In this document: in pieces, positions 7,609 through 22,013 of the stretch
How the letters are laid out: every line of letters starts with the position of its first letter
Numbering within the stretch: position 1 is the first letter of the stretch
Virus record (IMG/VR): IMGVR_UViG_3300032309_000565
Coordinates: 1 to 24,663 of that record
Reading direction: 5' to 3' (one strand)
DNA length: 24,663 bases
Source of the DNA: a virus
The notes under the pieces: model-generated
Databases searched by the model: none
What the model was told of the DNA's origin: nothing
Seen by the model: the letters and a program-made list of their open reading frames with translations, nothing else
Translations under genes and position numbers: made by a program

Positions 7609-9194
7609 TTAGGTATAAACTTATTTGTCTTAACGGCTGGAGCTTGCTTCTTTTTGCCAGTCCTTGCCTTACGTACATTATCCATCATGTTGTGTAGTTT
7701 CTTAGCGCCTGCATCAGTAGAGCCGTTACCTAAATGTGATACTACGTCTGCTGGCACAACAAACTCACCGTCAGCTAACCGAGCTGGCTGACGCCTCCCA
7801 ATAATTGCAGGGATGTTATCGCTCATGCCATCACCAGGCCCTTTTAATAAGCGGGGATTGCCTCCAGCAGCATAGCCACCTAGATTAGCCCCCATAATCC
7901 CACCACTAGCAGCATACTCATACTCGTCGTTTTTTTCTGCTTTTTTACCTTGGGGCTTCATATTTAACTGTCCCATAGATCTGCTGGCACGCGGTAATTT
8001 AGCGTCTGTATCTACATAGTTCTGTTTCTCCAGCGCAGCCTGCCTTGTCATAGCAGCATCTAAAGCGCTTTTATTCCTAGTTGAGGCGCTAGTATCACGG
8101 AAAATACCTGGATCGCCTTTTTCGGTTGGAGCTTGGTATCTAGATTGTGGGTCGTACATGTCTAAGAACCGCTGCGTTGCGCCATATACGTCACCGCGCC
8201 CGCCAGAACTAGTAGCTAACTTACCGCGGTAATAACGGGGTATAGATGTAATACCACCTTCTGCAAACGTTCTTTGAGCACCCGCATCTACCACTTCCAT
8301 GCTGGTTGGACGCTGTGTTGGTAAGGCATATTGGGTTTTATCAATCATGCCCTGTGGGTATAAACCGCCTTGTGGGTTAATAGCCGTGTTCATTTGGCTC
8401 ATACGCTCTACAGGACCTCCATTAGCGTAGGCTTCTGTAATACCACCAGAGGCATAGTTGTAGCGCCTTTCTTCGTACACATTAGGTGGACTATAAGGAC
8501 CACCTTGAAAATTTGCTGACAAACGAGGTCCTGTGTAAGTTTCGTCATCTTCAGGTTGTTGCTGCCCATAATTTTGGTCTAAAGCCCCAGTAACACTAGC
8601 AACGCCATAAATACCAGCCCCTGTTAAGAATGGGTTTTCTTTAGCAAAATCAGTAAAGCCCCGTATAAAGCCGTTGCTTGCTGGAGCAGTACCAGCCTCA
8701 CCAGGAAGTACATTTAGTCCTGTATTAGACTGAACAAACGGGCCAGGTGCTGGCGCAGGAGGAGGCGTTACAGGTGAGGTATACCCTATGTTATTAATGC
8801 CAGCAGACTGCATACCCGTACCTTGCGCTGCGATTGCATCAGCTGATCCTTGGTTAACGGCGTTTATCATTTCCGGAGTAATTTGTTCAATACCTGCGGG
8901 AGCTACATTAGTAGCAGCTTGGCTTAAAAGCTCAGGAGCAGCTTGTTGAACGACTGTATCAAGGGGAACTGCATTAATAGCAGCGGTGTTAACCAATTCA
9001 GGAGCGGCTTGACTTAAAAGTTCGGGCGCTATTTGTTCGGAGCCGCCACCAAGTCCACCTGTTACAGCACCAGCAGCGCCGCCAATAAGAGCCCCTTTAA
9101 GGGCATCATCAATGCTATTACCCTGAATTAATTGGCTACCTGCACCAACCCCTGCACCAATAGCTGCTGCTGTACCGACGGCTGCCCAAGTCAT
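7605..9194 (-). CDS. Gly/Ala-rich virion protein with conserved basic C-terminal domain, 529 residues
   Basis: The N-terminus (residues 3-50) is a hydrophobic Gly/Ala-rich segment that could insert in or cross a membrane, as in phage ejection proteins. Residues about 55-115 carry near repeats of APELLSQAA. The middle contains GGI-type glycine modules, including GGITSIPRY at 8232-8258, also found in the 908-residue neighbour. The C-terminal 80 residues hold ARLADGEFVVPADVVSHLG followed by a Lys/Arg-rich tail (KARTGKKKQ). This (D/E)GEFVV-type end is familiar from phage tail and internal proteins, though I cannot name the family. The ATG at 9194 has a strong AAGGAG site seven bases upstream and overlaps the preceding stop (ATGA). 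A virion or DNA-ejection role is inferred from composition and position. Confidence 0.8.
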   Translation of the reverse strand: MTWAAVGTAAAIGAGVGAGSQLIQGNSIDDALKGALIGGAAGAVTGGLGGGSEQIAPELLSQAAPELVNTAAINAVPLDTVVQQAAPELLSQAATNVAPAGIEQITPEMINAVNQGSADAIAAQGTGMQSAGINNIGYTSPVTPPPAPAPGPFVQSNTGLNVLPGEAGTAPASNGFIRGFTDFAKENPFLTGAGIYGVASVTGALDQNYGQQQPEDDETYTGPRLSANFQGGPYSPPNVYEERRYNYASGGITEAYANGGPVERMSQMNTAINPQGGLYPQGMIDKTQYALPTQRPTSMEVVDAGAQRTFAEGGITSIPRYYRGKLATSSGGRGDVYGATQRFLDMYDPQSRYQAPTEKGDPGIFRDTSASTRNKSALDAAMTRQAALEKQNYVDTDAKLPRASRSMGQLNMKPQGKKAEKNDEYEYAASGGIMGANLGGYAAGGNPRLLKGPGDGMSDNIPAIIGRRQPARLADGEFVVPADVVSHLGNGSTDAGAKKLHNMMDNVRKARTGKKKQAPAVKTNKFIPK

Positions 9195-9697
9195 AGTTTT
9201 TCTCCTTCAATTCCAACCAAGTCATTAACAGACGCTATTAAGCCTAAATCACCATAATTTGGGGCTATAACTTCATCTTCAATTTTGTCTAAATTCTCTT
9301 CGCCTACATAGGCAGTTAAATGTATAGTTGTCCAAATAGTATCTTCGTGGGCATATACGGCTCTTTTTAGTCCGACTTCAGATACAAATGTACAAGGTCC
9401 TTCTAATTCTTTCTTACCAAATTCGGTAAACACCGTAACTTTTCCCTTGGAGATGATGTTAAGGTGCTGGTGCTTATGTATTTTACCTATAACTAAGCTT
9501 CCTTTGCGTAAAAGTATTTCTCTCGCATAGGTGCAGCATCCGTACTTTTCATCTACTGGAGAGAAGTAATGCTTTAAAGGGCTGTCGTCAGGCACTATTT
9601 CTCCTGATGCAATCCCGTCTTTAAGGCCCCGCTCAACAGCTAAAACGTCCTGTCTGAACTTTACCTTCTCTGTGCTGTTTTGTATAGCGTTTGTCAT
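9191..9697 (-). CDS. Cupin-fold protein, 168 residues
   Basis: Residues 70-125 look like a cupin barrel: GKIHKHQHLNIISKGKVTVF gives H74, H76 and H78 as likely metal ligands, followed by the Gly of motif 1, and AVYAHEDT supplies H117 in the motif 2 position. The usual Glu of motif 1 is not obvious. Residues 15-60 form a helical N-terminal extension with two adjacent cysteines (C54, C55). Cupins bind a metal and may be enzymes, isomerases or simple sensors; the substrate cannot be read from the sequence. It starts directly after the stop of the small fibre-like gene (no gap) and overlaps the next gene by four bases. It sits among structural genes, so it could modify a virion component or be carried in the particle. 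Confidence 0.75.
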   Translation of the reverse strand: MTNAIQNSTEKVKFRQDVLAVERGLKDGIASGEIVPDDSPLKHYFSPVDEKYGCCTYAREILLRKGSLVIGKIHKHQHLNIISKGKVTVFTEFGKKELEGPCTFVSEVGLKRAVYAHEDTIWTTIHLTAYVGEENLDKIEDEVIAPNYGDLGLIASVNDLVGIEGEKL

Positions 9698-13289: not shown

Positions 13290-14303
13290 TTAGTTTTTCT
13301 GAGCAATAATTAAATCAACATACTTAATAGCAAGATCAACAGTACCTGATCCTGAACTAAAACTAAACGGGTGAGTGTGGCTACCGCCCCCGCCAGTGGC
13401 GTTGGTTGGTGAAGTTCCAATAGGAGTAGCGCTACCAGCATTTCCAAAACGAATTCCTGGAGCTCCTGGACCTCCAAACGCATTAATAGTGTGGTCATGA
13501 GAAGGAATCTGAGGGGTGCTTAATGTGGTTGCGCCAGCTGAACCCGAAACAGAAGAAACAGTAACTGACGTAGAAGAACTAAACGCACTAGTAAAGTTTA
13601 AAGAACCGCCAGAACCTACACTGCCACTAACTAATCTAAATCCAGCATTATCTACGCTAGTGCTTTTAGTCCAACCAGTTGGCGCCGCTGTTTGATTAAA
13701 CGTCATGCGGGTACCAGACGCAAAATCCGCAGCACTAGAAACCCAAGTAGTGCCGTTCGAAGTAAGCGCATTACCAGACGTACCAGGAGCTACAAAATTA
13801 ACACTAGAAGTGCCATTCCCAAGAATTACGTTATTAGCAGTTAATGTGCTTTGTCCTGTACCACCTCCAGAAACCCCTAAAACAGCACCGTTTACAAAAG
13901 CACCTGACGCTGCAATAAAATTAGTTCCGTCGCAGTAGACCCAAACAGTAGTGCCATTAGGAACAGATACTGAAGATCCACTAGCCGCACGAATATTAAT
14001 GGCAAAACCGCCAACCGTACTGTTTTTAACCACATAAAGTTTTTCAGCTAATGGAGCAATAATATCTCGCACTGCAGCATTTGTACCACCAACCACTAAA
14101 ACAGCGTTTCTAGCCTCATCTGACACACCGTTAAAGTTAGTTAGGGTGTAGTTTGCGTCTGCCATGGTAATGTTTACCACGCCTGTAATAGCCTGTTCTA
14201 AAAGAGTGCCTAGGTTTGTATTGGTAGTTTGGCCCCAAATACCAGACTGTTCGCCGTCGCCAATAAGCTCTATGCGTAGTGTTGGTGAGAATGTACTTGC
14301 CAT
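13290..14303 (-). CDS. Second tail fibre/receptor-binding protein, 337 residues
   Basis: The N-terminus (residues 1-130) is a virion-anchoring type I recognise from short phage fibres: ELIGDGEQSGIWGQTTNTN, then a beta-rich part with VPNGTTVWVYCDGTNF. A thin linker with GVSGGGTGQSTLTANNVILG leads to a C-terminal tip (about residues 200-337) that carries IPSHDHTI and GSHTHPFSF, the histidine-x-histidine motifs of T4 gp37-like and collar-like tips, where metal is bound along a trimer. The tip is nearly the same as that of the 1347-residue fibre. It binds the host surface, presumably as a trimer. AAGGA sits six bases before the ATG. Receptor is unknown. Confidence 0.85.
   Translation of the reverse strand: MASTFSPTLRIELIGDGEQSGIWGQTTNTNLGTLLEQAITGVVNITMADANYTLTNFNGVSDEARNAVLVVGGTNAAVRDIIAPLAEKLYVVKNSTVGGFAINIRAASGSSVSVPNGTTVWVYCDGTNFIAASGAFVNGAVLGVSGGGTGQSTLTANNVILGNGTSSVNFVAPGTSGNALTSNGTTWVSSAADFASGTRMTFNQTAAPTGWTKSTSVDNAGFRLVSGSVGSGGSLNFTSAFSSSTSVTVSSVSGSAGATTLSTPQIPSHDHTINAFGGPGAPGIRFGNAGSATPIGTSPTNATGGGGSHTHPFSFSSGSGTVDLAIKYVDLIIAQKN
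13441..13483 (-). repeat. Direct repeat shared by the two fibre tips, copy 1
   Basis: These 43 bases are identical to 18136-18178. They encode the FGGPGAPGIRFGN part of the fibre tip. The surrounding 100 or so bases are also similar, with scattered mismatches, so this is the best-conserved core of a longer duplicated tip. Confidence 0.9.
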
Positions 14304-14312
14304 AACCTGTCC

Positions 14313-15629
14313 TTAATTATCAAAGCCCGAAGGCACTAATACTTTTGTCCAATTTGGCGTCTGGCTTGGGTTTATCTCGCTCCATGCCGATACCTGAGTT
14401 GGGTTAATTTCTTGCCAATCTGGGGTCTGATCCGTATCAATATTACCCCAAACGTTAACTACCTTAAGTTTAACAACTGCCTTGACTCCTGTCACTAAAA
14501 CTGTTGCAGTGCCAAATACGGTTACATCGCCTATTCTGCCTATGGCCTGGGTGCCCGTTACAAATACATCTGCGTTTGCTTTTGCTTCTACATTGCCAAT
14601 CCTGCCTACTGCCTGAACGCCAGTTAAATCTACTACGGCTGTTCCCGTTACGTTTACATTCCCAAGGCTCCCTACAGCATATACCCCAGTAACTAGAATA
14701 GTGATACTGTTAGCAATATCTACATTATCGATGCGCCCAACAGACTGAACCCCAGTCACATCAACCGTTATGCCGCCTGTAACCCCAACGTCACCGATTA
14801 CACCAATTGCATTAACGCCAGTTAGGTTTACTACCGCACCGCCAGTAACGTCTACGTTACCAAGCCTTCCTACAGCGCTTACACCAGCCAAATCAACTAC
14901 TGTGCCAGCCTGAACCGTGACATTTCCAATACGGCCTACGGCAAAAACTCCAGTTAAATCAACAACTGCGCCTGACTGAACTTCTACGTTACCTATACGC
15001 CCTACGGCGGATACACCCGTTAAATTAACTACGGCGCCAGCAGTTACGGTTACATTTCCGACCCTACCAACAGTCTGAACACCTGTTAAATCAACCGTTA
15101 CGCCACCAGAGAAAGCAACATCGCCAATTCTGCCTACGGTAGTTACGCCCGTCAGGCTTACCGTTACACCACCAGAGAACGCTACATCGCCAACTCGCCC
15201 TACAGCGGATACACCCGTTAAATTAACTACGGCGCCAGCAGTTACGGTTACATTTCCGACCCTACCAACCGCATTTACGCCCGTTAAATTAACTACTGCA
15301 CTAGCTTGGGTATGAACAGTACCAACCCGTCCAACAGCGTTTACGCCAGTTAAAGTGGTATTAGAAGCTGCCTTAACATCAACAGTGCCAACCCTACCTA
15401 CTGTCGTAACACCTGTTACAGCGGTATTAGAAGCTGCTACAACCGTTACAGTACCAACCCTGCCTACTGCATTAACGCCTGTTACCGCAAGAATCTGGTC
15501 GGTGACAAAACTAACTGTACCAACTACACCAACAGCTGTTACGCCAGTTAACTGTACTGAAATACCTTCACTAGTCTCGCCAGTATCAGCAAACGGCGCC
15601 GCTGCGTAGGGCGAAAAGCCAAAAGTCAT
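14313..15629 (-). CDS. Tandem 22-residue beta-repeat protein, probable fibre-associated virion protein, 438 residues
   Basis: Residues 26-397 consist of seventeen 22-residue repeats with the core LTGVxAVGRVGNVTVTAGAVV, where V, G and I/V positions recur with exact spacing. Such a pattern predicts a beta-solenoid or stacked beta-arch rod. The 20-residue N-terminus (GFSPYAAAPFADTG) may anchor it; the C-terminus repeats the phrase W-x-EINP-x-Q-x-x-x-W (WQEINPTQVSAW, WSEINPSQTPNW). Repeats 1-16 are regular, and repeat 17 is degenerate (KAVVKLKVV). No enzyme signature is present. It lies between a 2OG-oxygenase gene and the second fibre gene, with 8- and 9-base gaps, so an adhesion-apparatus or decoration role is inferred. 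I cannot name the family. Confidence 0.8.
   Translation of the reverse strand: MTFGFSPYAAAPFADTGETSEGISVQLTGVTAVGVVGTVSFVTDQILAVTGVNAVGRVGTVTVVAASNTAVTGVTTVGRVGTVDVKAASNTTLTGVNAVGRVGTVHTQASAVVNLTGVNAVGRVGNVTVTAGAVVNLTGVSAVGRVGDVAFSGGVTVSLTGVTTVGRIGDVAFSGGVTVDLTGVQTVGRVGNVTVTAGAVVNLTGVSAVGRIGNVEVQSGAVVDLTGVFAVGRIGNVTVQAGTVVDLAGVSAVGRLGNVDVTGGAVVNLTGVNAIGVIGDVGVTGGITVDVTGVQSVGRIDNVDIANSITILVTGVYAVGSLGNVNVTGTAVVDLTGVQAVGRIGNVEAKANADVFVTGTQAIGRIGDVTVFGTATVLVTGVKAVVKLKVVNVWGNIDTDQTPDWQEINPTQVSAWSEINPSQTPNWTKVLVPSGFDN
15007..15071 (-). repeat. 65-base exact direct repeat, distal copy
   Basis: Identical to 15205-15269, offset 198 bases (three repeat units). It spans the junction of repeat units 8 and 9. 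Exact identity against the diverged background marks a recent three-unit duplication or gene conversion. Confidence 0.9.
15205..15269 (-). repeat. 65-base exact direct repeat, proximal copy
   Basis: Identical to 15007-15071. It spans the junction of units 5 and 6. Flanking bases differ on both sides, so the identity is confined to about one unit. Confidence 0.9.
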
Positions 15630-15637
15630 ATCTTAGC

Positions 15638-16195
15638 CTATACAAACCAAGTTACTATAGAATACCGTGTACCGCTAGTCACAGGCATAATTTCGTGAGG
15701 GTACATAAAGTTAGAAGGAAACATCAGAGCATCTCCTTTTTTTAATTTGTATACGAGCTCACGCCCAAAAAAAGCAAGCTCCCCGCCTTCGTAATCATCA
15801 TTTAACGCAAAAGAGCAAGATATCTCACGTGGTCGTTCTTTAAACGAGTCTGTATGTGGTGTATAAAATTGACCAACTTCATATTTTAGTAGATCATATC
15901 CAGTATCTTCTCTAGTGTTACAAGTTGGGTATTTTTGTTTATACTGCTTTATTACATTAGCAGCAGCAATATATAAATAAGAATCTAATTCTTTTCTTAT
16001 TTTATGGTTTTTATTAATTATGTCGTTGTACGAAATACCAACTATTGAACACTGTCTTTCAGCATCTGTTTTTCCAGCTGCTGTAATTGCTTGAGTCCAC
16101 GAATCACAATTTTTATACTCGTTAAGCACAGCAGCACATAATGCTGGTGTAACAGCATTAGGAATAATAACAATGTAGTCTGATAATTGATTCAT
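15638..16195 (-). CDS. 2-oxoglutarate/Fe(II)-dependent dioxygenase, prolyl-4-hydroxylase type, 185 residues
   Basis: The protein has the double-stranded beta-helix motifs of the family: H114-T-D116 (FYTPHTDSF) and H167 (MYPHEIMPV) for iron, and R177 ten residues later (GTRYSIVTWF) for the 2-oxoglutarate carboxylate. The strand EGGELAFFG before KKGDALMFP is also typical of P4H-like enzymes. It probably hydroxylates a protein or small molecule using 2-oxoglutarate and oxygen. Many aquatic phages carry such genes, with unknown substrates. It overlaps the cupin gene start by four bases (ATGA) and lies just before the 22-residue repeat protein gene; a virion fibre or host surface substrate is inference. 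Confidence 0.9.
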   Translation of the reverse strand: MNQLSDYIVIIPNAVTPALCAAVLNEYKNCDSWTQAITAAGKTDAERQCSIVGISYNDIINKNHKIRKELDSYLYIAAANVIKQYKQKYPTCNTREDTGYDLLKYEVGQFYTPHTDSFKERPREISCSFALNDDYEGGELAFFGRELVYKLKKGDALMFPSNFMYPHEIMPVTSGTRYSIVTWFV

Positions 16196-16635
16196 TCTAT
16201 TTTTGTTACATCTATTTTGCCGCTAGATTCAGTGCTTGGATTTTTAACAACATTTTGATTTTGCCCATTGTAGTTCTCAGGAGGGCCCCACCAATGACAA
16301 ACTTCATAAGGAATCATTACACCGTCTGGAAACATAGATGGATCAGCAATATCTTCAATACGTTCCCCAGTCCGCATGGCGTGTATACAATAAGCAACCG
16401 TATTGTTTTCTAAAGCGGTAAAAGCGTGTTCCGCATCTTTTTTAATGAATATCATGTGCGGTGCATTAAAAATGGTTTCTTTGTCATTAACAACGCACTT
16501 AACTGAACCAGCTGCTAAAAGTGTCAAATGGTCAAAAGAATGAGTATGGGTATGCTCAGTATCGCCCGCATTTTTAAAGTGCATCATACGGCTATATAAG
16601 TTAGACACACAACCAATTTTTACCTCGAGCGACAT
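16192..16635 (-). CDS. Cupin-fold protein, 147 residues
   Basis: Residues 24-46 (GDTEHTHTHSFDHLTLLAAG) match cupin motif 1 with H28, H30, H32 as possible ligands, Asp35 where Glu is usual and Gly43 closing the turn. APHMIFIKKDAEHAF (residues 58-72) matches motif 2 with H70. The C-terminal third (CHWWGPPENYNGQNQNV) is outside the barrel and polar. It differs in sequence from the cupin at 9191-9697, so these are not recent duplicates. It is placed between two 2OG-oxygenases, two bases after the first, which suggests a shared pathway. Substrate unknown. Confidence 0.82.
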   Translation of the reverse strand: MSLEVKIGCVSNLYSRMMHFKNAGDTEHTHTHSFDHLTLLAAGSVKCVVNDKETIFNAPHMIFIKKDAEHAFTALENNTVAYCIHAMRTGERIEDIADPSMFPDGVMIPYEVCHWWGPPENYNGQNQNVVKNPSTESSGKIDVTKIE

Positions 16636-16637
16636 TT

Positions 16638-17177
16638 TTATTTCCTTTTATCAAAATAAGCCCAAGCACATGGGCCGTTGCTACGAACATAGTGTAAAAA
16701 TACTTGGCTATAATTTTGCCCGCTAAACGGCGTGTTTCGCCAATGATCTGCAATGCAACCCAGATATAACATAGCATCACCTTTATTCAAAGTTAAATCA
16801 ACTTCTTCTCCGTTTGGCTTTTGAATGCCAATATCCCAATTTGTGTCGCTGCCTATATGCAACGTTAAACTTATTTCACAAGCTGGTCTATCTCTATGCC
16901 TGTTAAGTACTTCTCCATTTTTATATATACGAGCATACGTATATGTTGGTAATACTTGTTCTTCAACCAAAACACTAACGTCGTTTACTTTTTGACAAAG
17001 TAGCTCAAGAAAAGGTTTAAAGTTATAAATAGCTGGTGAATTTGGAACTTGGGGGTCTTTCTCGTATTGACCGCTTTGTTCTAGCTTATAAAATTCTTGA
17101 TGCAAAACTTTAGCATGTTCCTCACTAATAAAGTTTGGGACAAACAAAAAATTATTTTGCTCAAGCTGTGCGTTCAC
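16638..17177 (-). CDS. 2OG-Fe(II) oxygenase-like protein, 179 residues (GTG start)
   Basis: The iron triad is visible: H94-R-D96 (LNRHRDRPACE) and H145 (CIADHWRNTPF), with LNKGDAMLYLG between. The residue ten after the distal His, where P4H-type enzymes have Arg, is Asn155, and the following block is SQVFLHYV, so 2-oxoglutarate may be bound differently. The frame runs on to a TTG at 17192, but no ribosome site sits at a good distance from it, while the GTG at 17177 overlaps the previous stop (TAGTG), the same kind of junction seen at five other boundaries here. I therefore start at 17177; numbering is from there. Proteins with HRDRP and QVFLHY are widespread in marine bacteria and phages. Substrate unknown. 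Confidence 0.8.
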   Translation of the reverse strand: MNAQLEQNNFLFVPNFISEEHAKVLHQEFYKLEQSGQYEKDPQVPNSPAIYNFKPFLELLCQKVNDVSVLVEEQVLPTYTYARIYKNGEVLNRHRDRPACEISLTLHIGSDTNWDIGIQKPNGEEVDLTLNKGDAMLYLGCIADHWRNTPFSGQNYSQVFLHYVRSNGPCAWAYFDKRK

Positions 17178-17644
17178 TATACGTTTGTCCAAACTTCTTG
17201 TGGAAGGCTAGGCCAGTCAATGTTTCCAGCAACTGGATAAACGGCATATTGACGCACTGCGTTACGATAGGTAATAAAGTCTTGCGCATTGCTTAAATAA
17301 GGATTACTTTTTGCAGGATCAGCAACATCAGGAATAGTAGTCCAATCCGTTGCTTGTAATTTACTTACAGCGGTTGCCTTGTTTTGTGCCGCTACTGGGG
17401 GTTGTGGAGGTACTGGGGTATTAGCTTCAGTCCATTTTGTCATGCAGCAGCTTGCCCATGCTGGTAACTCCGTAATAGGTTGATTTTCTACTAATGGAGA
17501 ATTATATTCAATCCAGCCAGCAGTGTCTTGCCATTGAAGAGCGTGAATATCAGCAGGTATATTGCAAGAGCTAAGGTCAAGATCGCTGTAAAATTTGCCG
17601 TCTTCGCCAACTGCTCCGTCAGTAGGGGTAATAGTTAATTTCAT
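17177..17644 (-). CDS. Tail-fibre assembly chaperone-like protein, 155 residues
   Basis: The C-terminal half (residues 88-155, with KLQATDWTTIPDVADP, FITYRNAVRQYAV and DWPSLPQEVW) is a domain I know from proteins encoded next to tail fibres, often annotated as tail assembly chaperone. The N-terminal half (about 1-60) is beta-rich and the two are joined by a Pro-rich linker (TPVPPQPP, residues 76-83). It likely helps fold or attach the long fibre encoded just upstream. The start overlaps the stop of the previous gene by four bases (ATGA). No catalytic motif is seen. Confidence 0.75.
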   Translation of the reverse strand: MKLTITPTDGAVGEDGKFYSDLDLSSCNIPADIHALQWQDTAGWIEYNSPLVENQPITELPAWASCCMTKWTEANTPVPPQPPVAAQNKATAVSKLQATDWTTIPDVADPAKSNPYLSNAQDFITYRNAVRQYAVYPVAGNIDWPSLPQEVWTNV

Positions 17645-17967
17645 TCTTCAATGCTCCTAATTAATTTGGGTTGCTCTTCGTTTTGCACATGCACAATACC
17701 TGCGGTTGCCAGTAAAAGTTGTTGGGCTTTTTCGTTTGATTTAACCATTTCATTTCTAAATGACTCAACTGCAGCACCAGTACTACGTTGTTGCCCAGAG
17801 TTTTCAATTAAAAGCATAGGAAGCCAAGATATTGCGCACTCGTAATTATCTACTTGGGCCCCACTATTTATGTCATATCCTTGCACACGGGTATACCAAG
17901 CACATGTAAGACCCACACAGTCTTTTTTAATTAGTGGACAAAAAGTCCCGTTTTTAAGTGTCCCCAT
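17641..17967 (-). CDS. Four-cysteine conserved phage protein, 108 residues
   Basis: The cysteines C10, C17, C22 (FCPLIKKDCVGLTCAWY) and C44 (YECAISWLPMLL) could bind zinc or an iron-sulphur cluster; the spacing is not a classical ribbon. Residues 62-75 (TGAAVESFRNEMV) form a conserved helix. I recognise this type from many proteobacterial phages, where it lies near the fibre genes, but its role is not known to me. A TTG at 17973 would extend it by two residues, but AAGGA lies directly before that TTG and six bases before the ATG at 17967, so ATG is chosen. The preceding fibre stop ends two bases upstream. Confidence 0.75.
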   Translation of the reverse strand: MGTLKNGTFCPLIKKDCVGLTCAWYTRVQGYDINSGAQVDNYECAISWLPMLLIENSGQQRSTGAAVESFRNEMVKSNEKAQQLLLATAGIVHVQNEEQPKLIRSIEE

Positions 17968-17969
17968 TA

Positions 17970-20900
17970 TCAATCCTTAGTTGCGCGTATAACGTCTACG
18001 TATTTTACCGCGAGGTTAATTGCATTACCCGTAAATGTACCTGAACCACTTGAGAAGCTGAACGGGTGGGTATGGCTACCTGCACCTCCCGTGTTGTTGG
18101 TTGATACAGTTCCAATAGGAGAAGCGCTACCAGCGTTTCCAAAACGAATTCCTGGAGCTCCTGGACCTCCAAACGCATCAATGGTGTGGCTATGAGAGGG
18201 AATTTGAGGCGTAGTAAGCGTTGTAGCACCTGCACTACCTGCAACTGCTGTAATACTTACCGAACCTGTTGGGGTTTGACTTGCAAACGCTGTAGTGAAA
18301 TTAACACTACCACCTGTACTTGCAGTTCCGCTTACAACACGAAGTCCCGCATTATCCTGATCGACTAACTTTGTAAATCCTGTTGGGGCTGCAGTCTGAC
18401 CAAAAATCATCACCGTACCAGCAGGAATTACTGTGCCACCTGAAACAGCTGCCCACGTAGAATCACCACGTAAATAGGTAGAAGCGTTAGCCGTACCAGT
18501 AGCAAGGCGGGCTGTAGCTACCGTACCAGATGAAATGTTTGAGGCATTAATGGCAGTAAGAGCTACGCCATTACCAGAGATACTAGTAAAAGTACCTACG
18601 TTAGCAGTAAACGATCCATTGGCATCTCTGGCTACAATCGTTGAAGCGCCGTTGGCTGAAGCAGCAGTTGTTCTAGCGTTGTCTATTGTTCCAGAAGTAA
18701 CGTTTGAGGCGTTAATAGCGGTTAGAGCTACGCCGTTTCCAGAAATAGATACCGATGTAATAGCACCTGCACTAAATTCACCAGAAGTTCCACGAAGAAC
18801 AATAGTCGATGCGCCGTTGGCGGTAGCCGCTGTAGTCCTGGCGTTTGCTACTGTACCTGTAGTTACGTTTGAACCATTAATTGCACTAATTGCCGATCCA
18901 TTAGCTGTAATGATGTTTGCTGTGAAAGAGCCGTTAGCATCGCGAGCCACAATCGTGGAAGCACCATTGGCATCAGAGGCGGTTGTTCTAGCGTTGGCAA
19001 TTGTTCCGCTAGATATGTTAGATGCGTTAATAGCTGTTAAAGATACCCCATTACCAGATACGCTAGTGAATGTACCCGTTGTAGCAGTAACTACGTTACC
19101 CGCAAAACTTCCATTTGTGTCTCTAGCAACAATCGTTGAAGCGCCGTTAGCTGAAGCAGCTGTAGTAGCAGAGTTGGGAATGCTTGTTAGGCCAGAGCCA
19201 GAACCTGTAAATGAAACGCCAGTAATTGCACCAGCAGAGAACTCACCAGAAGTTCCTCTTAATACAATCGTGCTTGCGCCGTTAGCGGTTGCTGCGGTAG
19301 TTCTAGCGTTAGCTATGGTTCCAGTTGAAACGTTTGAGGCGTTGATTGCTGTTAATCCAGCACCGTTACCAGATACTGCGCCACCACTAAGAGTGGTTAC
19401 GTTAACCACATTGGCAGTAAATGAGCCGTTTGCATCTCTGGCTACGATTGTACTTGCGCCATTAGCAGAGGCTGCCGTTGTTCTGGCGTTATCTAAGGTT
19501 CCAGTAGTAATTGCCGAGGCATTAATTGCTGTAAGTGAAGACCCATTACCTGAAACAGAAGTAAAAGTTCCTGTAGTACCCGTAATCACGTTTCCAGCAA
19601 ACGAGCCGTTGGCATCCCTTAAAACTAAGGTAGAAGCGCCGTTGGCTGATGCGCCAGTTGTCCGAGCGTTAGCTACCGTACCCGTAGTTACGTTTGAACC
19701 GTTAATTGCACTAATTGCTGCGCCGTCACCTGTAAATGAAGCGCCAGTAATTGCACCAGCAGCAAACTCACCCGATGTACCACGGAGTACGATAGTTGAA
19801 GCCCCGTTAGCTGTAGCCGCTGTTGTTCGTGCGTTAGCGATTGTTCCGCTAGATATGTTGGAAGCGTTGATATTGGTAAGGCTTGCTCCGTTACCAGAGA
19901 TAGTTGCGGTAATAACGTTTGCAGAAAAAGAACCGTTGGCATCACGAGATACTATGGTTGATGCGCCATTGGCATCAGATGCCGTAGTCCTTGCGTTTGC
20001 GATAGTGCCACTAGATATGTTTGAGGCATTAATAGCGGTTAGCGCAACTCCGTTACCTGACACAGAAGTAAATGTGCCAGTTGTTCCTGTTATTACATTC
20101 CCAGCAAAGGAACCATTAGCATCACGAACAACAAGAGTGGAAGCACCATTGGCAGAAGTAGCATTAGTCCTGGCATTGTCTAAAGTCCCCGAAGTAATTG
20201 CTGTAGCGTTGATAGCAGTAAGGGCGGAGCCGTTACCAGAGAAAGATGTACCTGTTATTGCACCAGCAGCAAATTCACCAGAAGCTCCGCGCAGAACAAT
20301 AGTAGAAGCGCCGTTACTAGAGGAAGCAGTAGTTCTCGCATTTGCAATAGTCCCCGTGGTTACGTTAGACCCGTTAATAGCTGAGACGTTAGAGCCGTCA
20401 CCAATAAAGAAGTTAGCCGTAATAGCATCAGCAGCAAAGTCACCAGCGGCGTCTCTTAAAACTATTGTGCTTGCTCCATTTGCGGATGAAGCTGTAGTTC
20501 TTGCGTTTGCTATGGTCCCGCTTGAGATGTTGGAAGCGTTAATAGAAGTGATGGTTGTACCAGCACCAATAAAGTTTGCCGCAGTTATGTTGCCAGCACC
20601 AAAAGCCCCGTTGGCATCACGAACAACAAGAGTGGAAGCACTGTTTGCATCTGAAGCCGTTGTTCTAGCATTGGCAATCGTGCCGCTAGTGATGTTTGAG
20701 GCATTGATAGCGGTTAGGGATACACCGTTACCTGATATGTTGGTAAAGTTGCCTGTCGTACCGTTAAACGTTGTGGCATTTGATGTAGTCGCCGTAATAA
20801 GGTTAGCGGTAAATGAGCCAGTAGAATCACGCAATACGATGGTATTTGCACCATTTGATGCGGACGCTGTGGTTCTTGCGTTGTCTAGCGTACCTAATGT

Positions 20901-22013
20901 GATACTAGAAGCATTAATAGAAACGTTAGAGGCGCTTGTAATTTGGCCTTGAGCATTAACCGCAATCTGAGATACTGCGCCAGCATTACCATAAGTTCCA
21001 GCTGTAACGGCTGTATTAGAAATACTAAACGTGGTATTTGTAAGGCTGAGTCCTGTGCCAGCGGAATAAATCTGGGCAGAACCAATCTGTGCAAACGTAA
21101 TATTTGTTGTGCCAAATGTAATAGTTCCTGGAGTGGTACATGTATAAACCTCGCCAGCTCCTGTATTACCAGACTGTACAAAGAATGTAGAGCCTTCACT
21201 TAAACCAGCAGAACTAGCAACAACATAGGTATCAGCATCGGTTGCACGAGTTAGAACCCACTGTGCAGAAGCATTACCTGGATTAGTAACTGTGTACACG
21301 CCATTTTGTACCGCATTAGACTGGGTATAAACTAAAACACGAGCTGTGTTAGATAGTGACACGCCATCAATACTTAAAGCTACGTTTGCACCGCTATTGG
21401 TTAGCGTAGCGCCTACGCCGTTACCTGCGCCGCCTGGTTGGTTGTATGTAGCAGTTAAAGCCGTTGGAGACTCAACAAGAACAGGAGTATGGTAATGGAC
21501 ACCAGCCGCAACAATTCCGTCTACATACTGTTTATTGACAATATCCGTAGCATTGGCAGCATTGGTCGTTATGGTTCCAGCCGTTACAGTAACTGTGTTT
21601 GCTGTTAGGTTTGTGGTATTTATATTGGTAAAGGTAATGGTATTTGCACCGTTACCAAACGCCTCTACTTTGCCAGTAGCGTCATTAATATAAACCGCTT
21701 CACCAGCTGGCTGCGTAATAAATACTTCTAAACCGCTTGCGCCCGCAGTAAAGTTGGTCTTAGATCCTGAATTAGATGAAGAAAAAACTGTATCTCTACT
21801 TAACGTAGCTGGAGACGTAAATGTACCAACGCCAACCTCCCATTGGGTATCAGACCCAGCGGTTAGGTTATGGATGGTGTAATAAACGGTAGAACCAGTA
21901 GCTATAGCGGCGTTAAACGTTTGATAGCCAGGAAATGCGCCAGTAAGCGTAATACTACCCGTGCCAGAGCTAGAGCTAGTTTCCTTAACCCTATCTTTTA
22001 GAACCAAAGCCAT
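17970..22013 (-). CDS. Long tail fibre, modular shaft and receptor-binding tip, 1347 residues
   Basis: The N-terminal 150 residues resemble a virion-anchoring domain (LKDRVKETSSSSGTGSITLT, FITQPAGEAVYINDATGKV). A beta-rich domain at about 165-330 contains VDGIVAAGVHYHTPV and YTCTTPGTITFG, common in aquatic phage fibres. Residues about 365-1165 are a shaft of fourteen to fifteen modules of 45-70 residues with the phrases INASNISSGTIANARTT and ANGASTIVxRDANGSF. The tip (about 1200-1347) starts FGQTAAPTGFTKL and has IPSHSHTI and GSHTHPFSF, the HxH motifs of metal-binding trimeric tips. The fibre recognises the host surface, presumably as a trimer. The ATG has a G-rich ribosome site (GGGGGG about five bases upstream). 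It precedes the tail-assembly-chaperone-like gene by one gene. Confidence 0.93.
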   Translation of the reverse strand: MALVLKDRVKETSSSSGTGSITLTGAFPGYQTFNAAIATGSTVYYTIHNLTAGSDTQWEVGVGTFTSPATLSRDTVFSSSNSGSKTNFTAGASGLEVFITQPAGEAVYINDATGKVEAFGNGANTITFTNINTTNLTANTVTVTAGTITTNAANATDIVNKQYVDGIVAAGVHYHTPVLVESPTALTATYNQPGGAGNGVGATLTNSGANVALSIDGVSLSNTARVLVYTQSNAVQNGVYTVTNPGNASAQWVLTRATDADTYVVASSAGLSEGSTFFVQSGNTGAGEVYTCTTPGTITFGTTNITFAQIGSAQIYSAGTGLSLTNTTFSISNTAVTAGTYGNAGAVSQIAVNAQGQITSASNVSINASSITLGTLDNARTTASASNGANTIVLRDSTGSFTANLITATTSNATTFNGTTGNFTNISGNGVSLTAINASNITSGTIANARTTASDANSASTLVVRDANGAFGAGNITAANFIGAGTTITSINASNISSGTIANARTTASSANGASTIVLRDAAGDFAADAITANFFIGDGSNVSAINGSNVTTGTIANARTTASSSNGASTIVLRGASGEFAAGAITGTSFSGNGSALTAINATAITSGTLDNARTNATSANGASTLVVRDANGSFAGNVITGTTGTFTSVSGNGVALTAINASNISSGTIANARTTASDANGASTIVSRDANGSFSANVITATISGNGASLTNINASNISSGTIANARTTAATANGASTIVLRGTSGEFAAGAITGASFTGDGAAISAINGSNVTTGTVANARTTGASANGASTLVLRDANGSFAGNVITGTTGTFTSVSGNGSSLTAINASAITTGTLDNARTTAASANGASTIVARDANGSFTANVVNVTTLSGGAVSGNGAGLTAINASNVSTGTIANARTTAATANGASTIVLRGTSGEFSAGAITGVSFTGSGSGLTSIPNSATTAASANGASTIVARDTNGSFAGNVVTATTGTFTSVSGNGVSLTAINASNISSGTIANARTTASDANGASTIVARDANGSFTANIITANGSAISAINGSNVTTGTVANARTTAATANGASTIVLRGTSGEFSAGAITSVSISGNGVALTAINASNVTSGTIDNARTTAASANGASTIVARDANGSFTANVGTFTSISGNGVALTAINASNISSGTVATARLATGTANASTYLRGDSTWAAVSGGTVIPAGTVMIFGQTAAPTGFTKLVDQDNAGLRVVSGTASTGGSVNFTTAFASQTPTGSVSITAVAGSAGATTLTTPQIPSHSHTIDAFGGPGAPGIRFGNAGSASPIGTVSTNNTGGAGSHTHPFSFSSGSGTFTGNAINLAVKYVDVIRATKD
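17974..17978 (-). promoter_or_regulatory. Ribosome binding site AAGGA deciding the ATG at 17967
   Basis: It lies six bases before the ATG at 17967 but immediately before an in-frame TTG at 17973. The spacing favours the ATG. The site lies within the last codons of the long fibre gene. Confidence 0.7.
18136..18178 (-). repeat. Direct repeat shared by the two fibre tips, copy 2
   Basis: Identical over 43 bases to 13441-13483 in the short fibre. It encodes the FGGPGAPGIRFGN segment of the tip. Confidence 0.9.
18540..20920 (-). repeat. Fibre shaft module array with a three-module super-repeat
   Basis: Fourteen modules of about 170 bases each. Modules 4, 7, 10 and 13 (near 20283, 19775, 19252 and 18790) carry RG(A/T)SGEF, all others RDxxGxF; modules 5, 8 and 11 carry SFAGNV(I/V)T and TTGTFTSVSGNG; modules 6, 9 and 12 carry SFxAN. 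So the array repeats as a triplet. Module 10 is shortened: it lacks the NASNxxxGTxxNARTT connector. The DNA of the modules differs mostly at synonymous positions. Confidence 0.85.

Follow-up and report, generated by a model that had tools for sequence, protein, structure and literature searches.

A paired dioxygenase cassette in fibre operons of aquatic phages as a candidate prolyl hydroxylase of receptor-binding loops

Tail-fibre operons of some phages carry a pair of genes, here called OxyA and OxyB, whose predicted products resemble prolyl 4-hydroxylases (P4H) and which recur beside fibres with paired HxH motifs at their C-terminal tips. The best-supported reading, which stands at about an even chance, is prolyl hydroxylation of the fibre loop. 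OxyB, a P4H-type dioxygenase, would act on prolines of the hypervariable receptor-binding loop that HxH-tip fibres expose, probably together with OxyA as its obligate partner domain, whose role may be catalytic, substrate-binding or structural. The reaction would take place while an adjacent chaperone and a small four-cysteine protein (Cys4) fold the fibre, and a cupin may serve as an optional accessory of this fibre-modification cassette. Three points are inferred from sequence: enzyme activity, the loop as substrate and hydroxyproline as product. The statement that the cassette is a fibre-modification add-on, in which OxyB with OxyA hydroxylates loop prolines of HxH-tip fibres, falls just short of an even chance. 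The wider proposal, in which an aquatic-phage dioxygenase pair hydroxylates loop prolines, host recognition involves a non-coded amino acid and the loop evolves to supply the substrate, is more tentative.

The window, that is, the whole stretch of DNA analysed, comes from IMG/VR, as a virus fragment 24,663 bases long. On its minus strand a run of genes, with overlaps or short gaps throughout, follows the order large fibre, Cys4, chaperone-like protein, OxyA, cupin, OxyB, repeat protein and second fibre (Table 1). A gap of 2 bases separates OxyA from the cupin, the cupin and OxyB share a 4-base ATGA overlap, and the repeat protein starts 8 bases beyond OxyB. The preliminary description of this DNA had noted the tight packing of OxyA, cupin and OxyB between fibre genes; the coordinates confirm it, and its conservation across many loci rules out chance. 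The neighbours, namely two fibres, a chaperone-like protein and a repeat protein, are also as described there. The OxyA frame is open from TTG 17192, and its start is most likely GTG 17177, because this codon overlaps the preceding stop by a single base (TAGTG) and the starts of relatives agree. An open frame of 805 aa on the plus strand (18535-20952) lies antisense to the large fibre gene and is probably a shadow or by-product of the fibre repeats. The nearest isolated relatives of one structural gene are phages including DSL-LC04, Roseobacter CRP-901 and Pelagibacter HTVC027P, which fits a short-tailed, podovirus-like source phage.

Table 1. Features of the fibre operon in the window, with a fibre of cyanophage S-SCSM1 in the last row.
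Feature	Position	Strand	Remarks
OxyA, predicted P4H fold, HxD...H, without canonical 2OG arginine	16638..17177	-	179 aa from GTG 17177; phrog_2954
Small cupin, predicted metal-type, optional accessory	16192..16635	-	147 aa
OxyB, predicted canonical P4H-type 2OG-Fe(II) oxygenase	15638..16195	-	185 aa; PF13640, phrog_61
Fibre chaperone-like protein	17177..17644	-	Phage_tail_APC, PF16778, weak match
Cys4, four invariant cysteines, after HxH-tip fibre	17641..17973	-	110 aa
Large tail fibre, C-terminal HxH tip	17970..22013	-	1347 aa
Hypervariable loop of large-fibre tip, candidate proline substrate	18081..18185	-	TIDAFGGPGAPGIRFGNAGSASPIGTVSTNNTGGA; coordinates from stop codon at 17970
Beta-type repeat protein	14313..15629	-	438 aa; closest relatives only
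Second tail fibre, HxH tip	13290..14303	-	337 aa
Hypervariable loop of second fibre, nearly identical to first	13386..13490	-	TINAFGGPGAPGIRFGNAGSATPIGTSPTNATGGG; coordinates from stop codon at 13290
S-SCSM1 fibre just upstream, annotated as virion protein	L001:4416-4952		loop NAGSQVNVSPGSPGIGGRAVNAQAPATSPTGGG

By its sequence, OxyB is a canonical P4H-type 2OG-Fe(II) oxygenase with a complete predicted 2OG site. It matches PF13640 (E 3e-18) and phrog_61 (2e-39), and its fold matches prolyl hydroxylases best. Among aligned relatives, the iron ligands are retained as H114 (179/180), D116 (150, with E in 29) and H167 (178/179), and the 2OG-binding residue R177, some 10 residues beyond the distal His, is Arg in 144 and Lys in 35. 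A profile of the fused OxyA-OxyB proteins matches PDB 3itq at 3.8e-14, a P4H/PHD2 sequence match that covers the OxyB half only. OxyA has no match in Pfam, and its sequence profile found nothing useful in the PDB; its P4H likeness comes from fold comparison only. The AF2 model (pLDDT 93.6, pTM 0.89, from a 71-sequence alignment) finds prolyl-4-hydroxylases as the top PDB folds in Foldseek, with the Pseudomonas P4H 4j25 at E 2e-10 and TM 0.73, and the metal triad HxD...H is retained throughout the relatives (H 140/140, D 140/140, H 138/138). No canonical 2OG Arg/Lys of the last strand is conserved at H+8 to H+13 in the alignment of relatives. The model thus suggests for OxyA the same P4H-type double-stranded beta-helix as in OxyB, without the usual 2OG arginine, so that 2OG is only a putative cosubstrate of OxyA. 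Other invariant residues (in alignment numbering, R at H+2, R87, R/K101 and Q162) are possible substitutes for this arginine. OxyA also matches phrog_2954 (7e-59), which is labelled ‘ferrochelatase’. In PHROG, phrog_2954, phrog_3531 and phrog_274, families matching 2OG-oxygenase-fold proteins, bear the names ‘ferrochelatase’ and ‘DNA endonuclease V’, which are misleading for such a fold.

The pairing of OxyA with OxyB is genuine and often takes the form of a fusion. In 80 viral OxyA loci, collected irrespective of OxyB, a gene for OxyB is found at most 4 genes from OxyA in 73, and 34 of these 73 encode the two as one protein; as OxyB-type proteins form a broad family, an unfused neighbour in these counts is ‘a P4H-type oxygenase’ and not always a strict orthologue. 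Six of the seven OxyA loci without a nearby OxyB lie near a contig end. Across 165 de-duplicated loci, OxyB is within 4 genes of OxyA in 134/141, with 53 fusions. In cyanophages the two form a single ORF; 41 fused proteins were aligned, and phrog_3531 aligns to OxyA with its first half and to OxyB with its second. The model of a natural fused protein (pLDDT 91, pTM 0.54) contains two confident domains joined by a disordered linker, with their relative placement uncertain. Chance adjacency of OxyA, OxyB and fibre genes was rejected, as the arrangement recurs in scans that were not selected for the partner.

The cupin encoded between the oxygenases is real and, judging from its conserved residues and profile, KdgF-like and of metal type. 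Its Pfam Cupin_2 score (21.6 bits) is under the cut-off of 27.2; the family profile matches a KdgF-type cupin at 9e-6, and H30, H32, H36 and H70 do not vary among 30 relatives, so that the HxH and the second-motif His are present. The gene is absent from many OxyA-OxyB pairs, is also found beside the chaperone without the pair, and gave no tblastn match in isolated phages. It is a separable, optional accessory, and OxyA, cupin and OxyB as an obligate set of three was dropped. The preliminary description had spoken of two 2OG/Fe(II) oxygenase-like genes flanking a cupin and forming a three-gene modification pathway. In this picture the cupin stands, OxyB is canonical, OxyA agrees in fold and triad and departs in the 2OG arginine, and the pathway is reduced to the OxyA-OxyB pair. 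Another cupin had been placed at 9191-9697 (minus strand); its product matches nothing in Pfam up to E 0.5 and does not align with the operon cupin, and its PHROG matches are short tail fibre/adhesin, so this assignment is not supported.

Across phage genomes the OxyA-OxyB genes recur beside fibre genes, a co-occurrence that the preliminary description had named as a check. Both oxygenases adjoin Cys4 and the chaperone in 58 of 80 Cys4 loci, usually just after an HxH-tip fibre; these loci were fetched without regard to oxygenases and represent the 80 with the highest similarity to the window, not a random sample. The usual order is HxH-tip fibre, Cys4, chaperone, (cupin), OxyA, (cupin), OxyB, and it spans phages from the podovirus-like source to the T4-like S-SCSM1; in P-SSM2 the order is fibre, Cys4, Phage_tail_APC, PF13640 oxygenase and fibre. 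When loci were fetched by more distant fibre tips, Cys4 was present in 73/80 and OxyA in only 7 (6 with OxyB); therefore the fibre tip and Cys4 are the core and the oxygenases an add-on. Cys4 is kept without either oxygenase in 62/80 HxH-tip loci, and the conserved core of HxH-tip fibre, Cys4 and fibre chaperone is mostly found without oxygenases. In L201 and L203, near relatives of the source phage that are otherwise very similar, a single DUF6445 protein (L201:2982-3668, L203:2939-3625) occupies the OxyA-cupin-OxyB slot between the chaperone and the repeat protein; its VHSDED...H...R pattern resembles that of 2OG oxygenases. An adhesin setting is also seen in bacteria: five contigs of Burkholderiales type, from chromosomes or bins (L464:1-12532, L462, L463, L466, L468), encode a giant repetitive adhesin-like protein and Lcl_C followed by OxyA-OxyB, and in L464, the one contig examined, SecA-like, M50 and HlyD-type export genes lie beside the pair; the low proline content of these giant proteins (1.6-2.9%) speaks against prolines as their target. 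The repeat protein is missing from most OxyA-OxyB loci and present in the closest relatives only, and as a substrate it is unsupported. Virion adhesins, proposed earlier as the target, remain the best fit, though not through residues of the repeat protein.

The Cys4 protein has no match in Pfam or PHROG, and each of its four cysteines is kept in 209 or more of 212 sequences. It is encoded immediately downstream of an HxH-tip fibre in 123/166 non-edge cases and is possibly a folding or metal-loading factor of the fibre tip. In the window, the fibre tips carry the paired C-terminal motifs IPSHSH / IPSHDH and GSHTH; a hypervariable loop connects the PxHxH motif of such tips to the GxHxH motif. 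The tip loops of the two window fibres are nearly identical, though loops differ completely between phages; matching within one phage was also seen in L009, L088, L201, L205 and L210, and was absent in L103, L089 and L128. This looks like loop copying or concerted evolution of the two fibre genes.

Were OxyB to hydroxylate prolines of the tip, the tips next to it would be expected to be rich in exposed proline. Loop proline amounts to 9.0% at loci with both oxygenases vs 4.3% at loci with none (78 vs 40 loops, p 6e-8), and to 9.2% vs 4.3% once similar loops are removed (69 vs 36 non-redundant loops, p 6e-8), the positive and negative loops coming largely from different scans. Elsewhere the groups are alike in proline, both beyond the loop (p 0.57) and over the remaining locus (p 0.60). 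Loci with oxygenases have the lower GC; the effect stays when GC and other proline are covariates (t 5.3) and at loci below 45% GC (8.7% vs 5.8%, p 0.006). Loci with OxyB only have 7.6% (p 0.024). On the Cys4 tree, PGLS (lambda 0.35) gives t 3.4 and p 9e-4, plain independent contrasts give no significant difference (p 0.59), and collapsing clusters gives p from 9e-7 to 0.054, the last with 11 clusters; the tree contains only about 11 changes of the oxygenase label, which limits the number of independent events. In a hold-out drawn from two further scans, for which proline had been fixed beforehand as the measure, the values were 8.6% vs 4.9% (37 vs 11 loops, one-sided p 0.011), the negative set being small and GC-rich. 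The first all-residue comparison was exploratory; in this discovery set proline was the strongest gain and tyrosine the strongest loss (p 1.6e-5), lysine was rarer with the pair, asparagine rose weakly (p 0.03), and a PG context occurred in 39/69 loops with the pair vs 8/36 without. The tyrosine, lysine and PG-context differences all failed to repeat in the hold-out. A collagen-like PG context and tyrosine depletion as an equal signal were dropped on this ground, and lysine as a target was rejected for its depletion in discovery-set loops. These data suggest that the hypervariable-loop proline of the HxH tip is a better candidate substrate than repeat residues; the link is a correlation with few independent events, not proof.

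The pair may instead modify virion or surface adhesins at another residue or protein (Asn or Lys of the fibre, an RCC1-type protein, or Cys4), maybe ahead of glycosylation, which we regard as somewhat unlikely. The motif test found an HxH tip in 1/84 OxyA-OxyB loci without Cys4; as the other 83 have none, other substrates must exist. Such loci often have other fibres, RCC1-like genes, additional oxygenases or genes for virion proteins as neighbours; in some the neighbours are unrelated genes. Glycosyltransferase genes adjoin the cassette in some loci, near or directly after OxyA-OxyB (L002:10057-10863, L005:13210-13938, L135:6545-7339), with GT25 matches in S-SCSM2R (2e-7), AG-345-E08 (7e-12) and, weakly, L135 (0.005), and phrog_2835 glycosyltransferases make up 7 of 64 neighbours of the cassette. 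This suggests hydroxylation followed by glycosylation in some phages. On the other hand, the examined genes beside the cassette in the window include no glycosyltransferase, and the rarity of lysine and the weak rise of asparagine in loops with the pair argue against these residues.

Overall, a modified adhesin of some kind is more probable than any role directed at the host. A host-cell target of the enzymes (surface glycans, lipids or small metabolites), which would make them auxiliary metabolic genes placed in the fibre operon for co-expression only, is unlikely. Phage 2OG oxygenases are treated as host-metabolism or DNA-repair genes in published papers (PMC9602691, PMC9146016), some OxyA-OxyB pairs lie near sugar or nucleotide genes, and the cupin resembles KdgF; however, neither the strict order fibre, Cys4, chaperone, OxyA, OxyB in unrelated phages nor a proline correlation confined to the fibre tip would be expected from such a role. 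Very unlikely is a metal-loading function, in which OxyA, the cupin and Cys4 help to insert iron into the HxH tip without hydroxylation. HxH tips of the T4 gp37 type are reported to bind iron (PMC11705849), OxyA has no 2OG arginine and Cys4 accompanies HxH tips, but the 62 loci that keep Cys4 without either oxygenase indicate that the tip does not need the pair, and the 2OG site of OxyB appears complete by sequence. AlkB-like nucleic-acid repair, proposed for phage 2OG oxygenases near uvsX/uvsY (PMC9146016) and echoed by the ‘DNA endonuclease V’ label of a related family, is hardly credible, for both folds are closest to prolyl hydroxylases, the AlkB homologue ABH8 ranks only 11 for OxyA, and the window genes sit in a structural operon.

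Hydroxylation of loop prolines, if true, would mean that phage receptor-binding loops carry a post-translational hydroxylation, with a bearing on host recognition and on fibre structure prediction, and one large oxygenase family would be tied to a specific virion part and residue. Viral P4H genes are described as abundant auxiliary genes of cryptic use (PMC9301287), and a 2012 paper on prophage collagen-like proteins held bacteria and viruses to be without prolyl hydroxylases for collagen-type modification (PMC3368898). No report of hydroxylated phage fibres was found in the open-access literature that the search covered. Fibre-loop hydroxylation is testable on the isolated phage S-SCSM1, whose virion proteome is already measured (PMC9602691).

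Several known systems share parts of this arrangement. The vCPH of PBCV-1 is, to our knowledge, a single enzyme of an algal chlorella virus, encoded outside a fibre operon and neither paired nor fused with an OxyA-type partner. It has the same P4H-type double-stranded beta-helix with HxD...H (PDB 5c5t; fold match rank 24), and hydroxyproline in viral proteins was proposed for it (Eriksson 1999, as cited in PMC9301287). The Pseudomonas P4H (4iw3/4j25) and Tpa1/OGFOD1 are the best fold matches for both OxyA and OxyB; their substrates are cellular translation factors (EF-Tu for the Pseudomonas enzyme), whereas here a fibre is proposed. Tpa1/OGFOD1 has two DSBH domains per chain, like the fused OxyA-OxyB. 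One of these domains lacks a metal site, whereas OxyA-OxyB keep both metal triads. With T4 gp37-type fibres the window fibres share, by motif, the paired HxH at the C-terminus; a difference is that Cys4, and in some phages the oxygenase pair as well, comes after tips of the window type. The closest counterpart is ORF248 of cyanophage S-SCSM1, a homologue in which OxyA and OxyB are fused and which is directly preceded by homologues of Cys4 and the chaperone; excerpts of PMC9602691 give it two 2OG-oxygenase domains and call its function uninvestigated, and the pair family, the fibre operon and a substrate are not identified in them.
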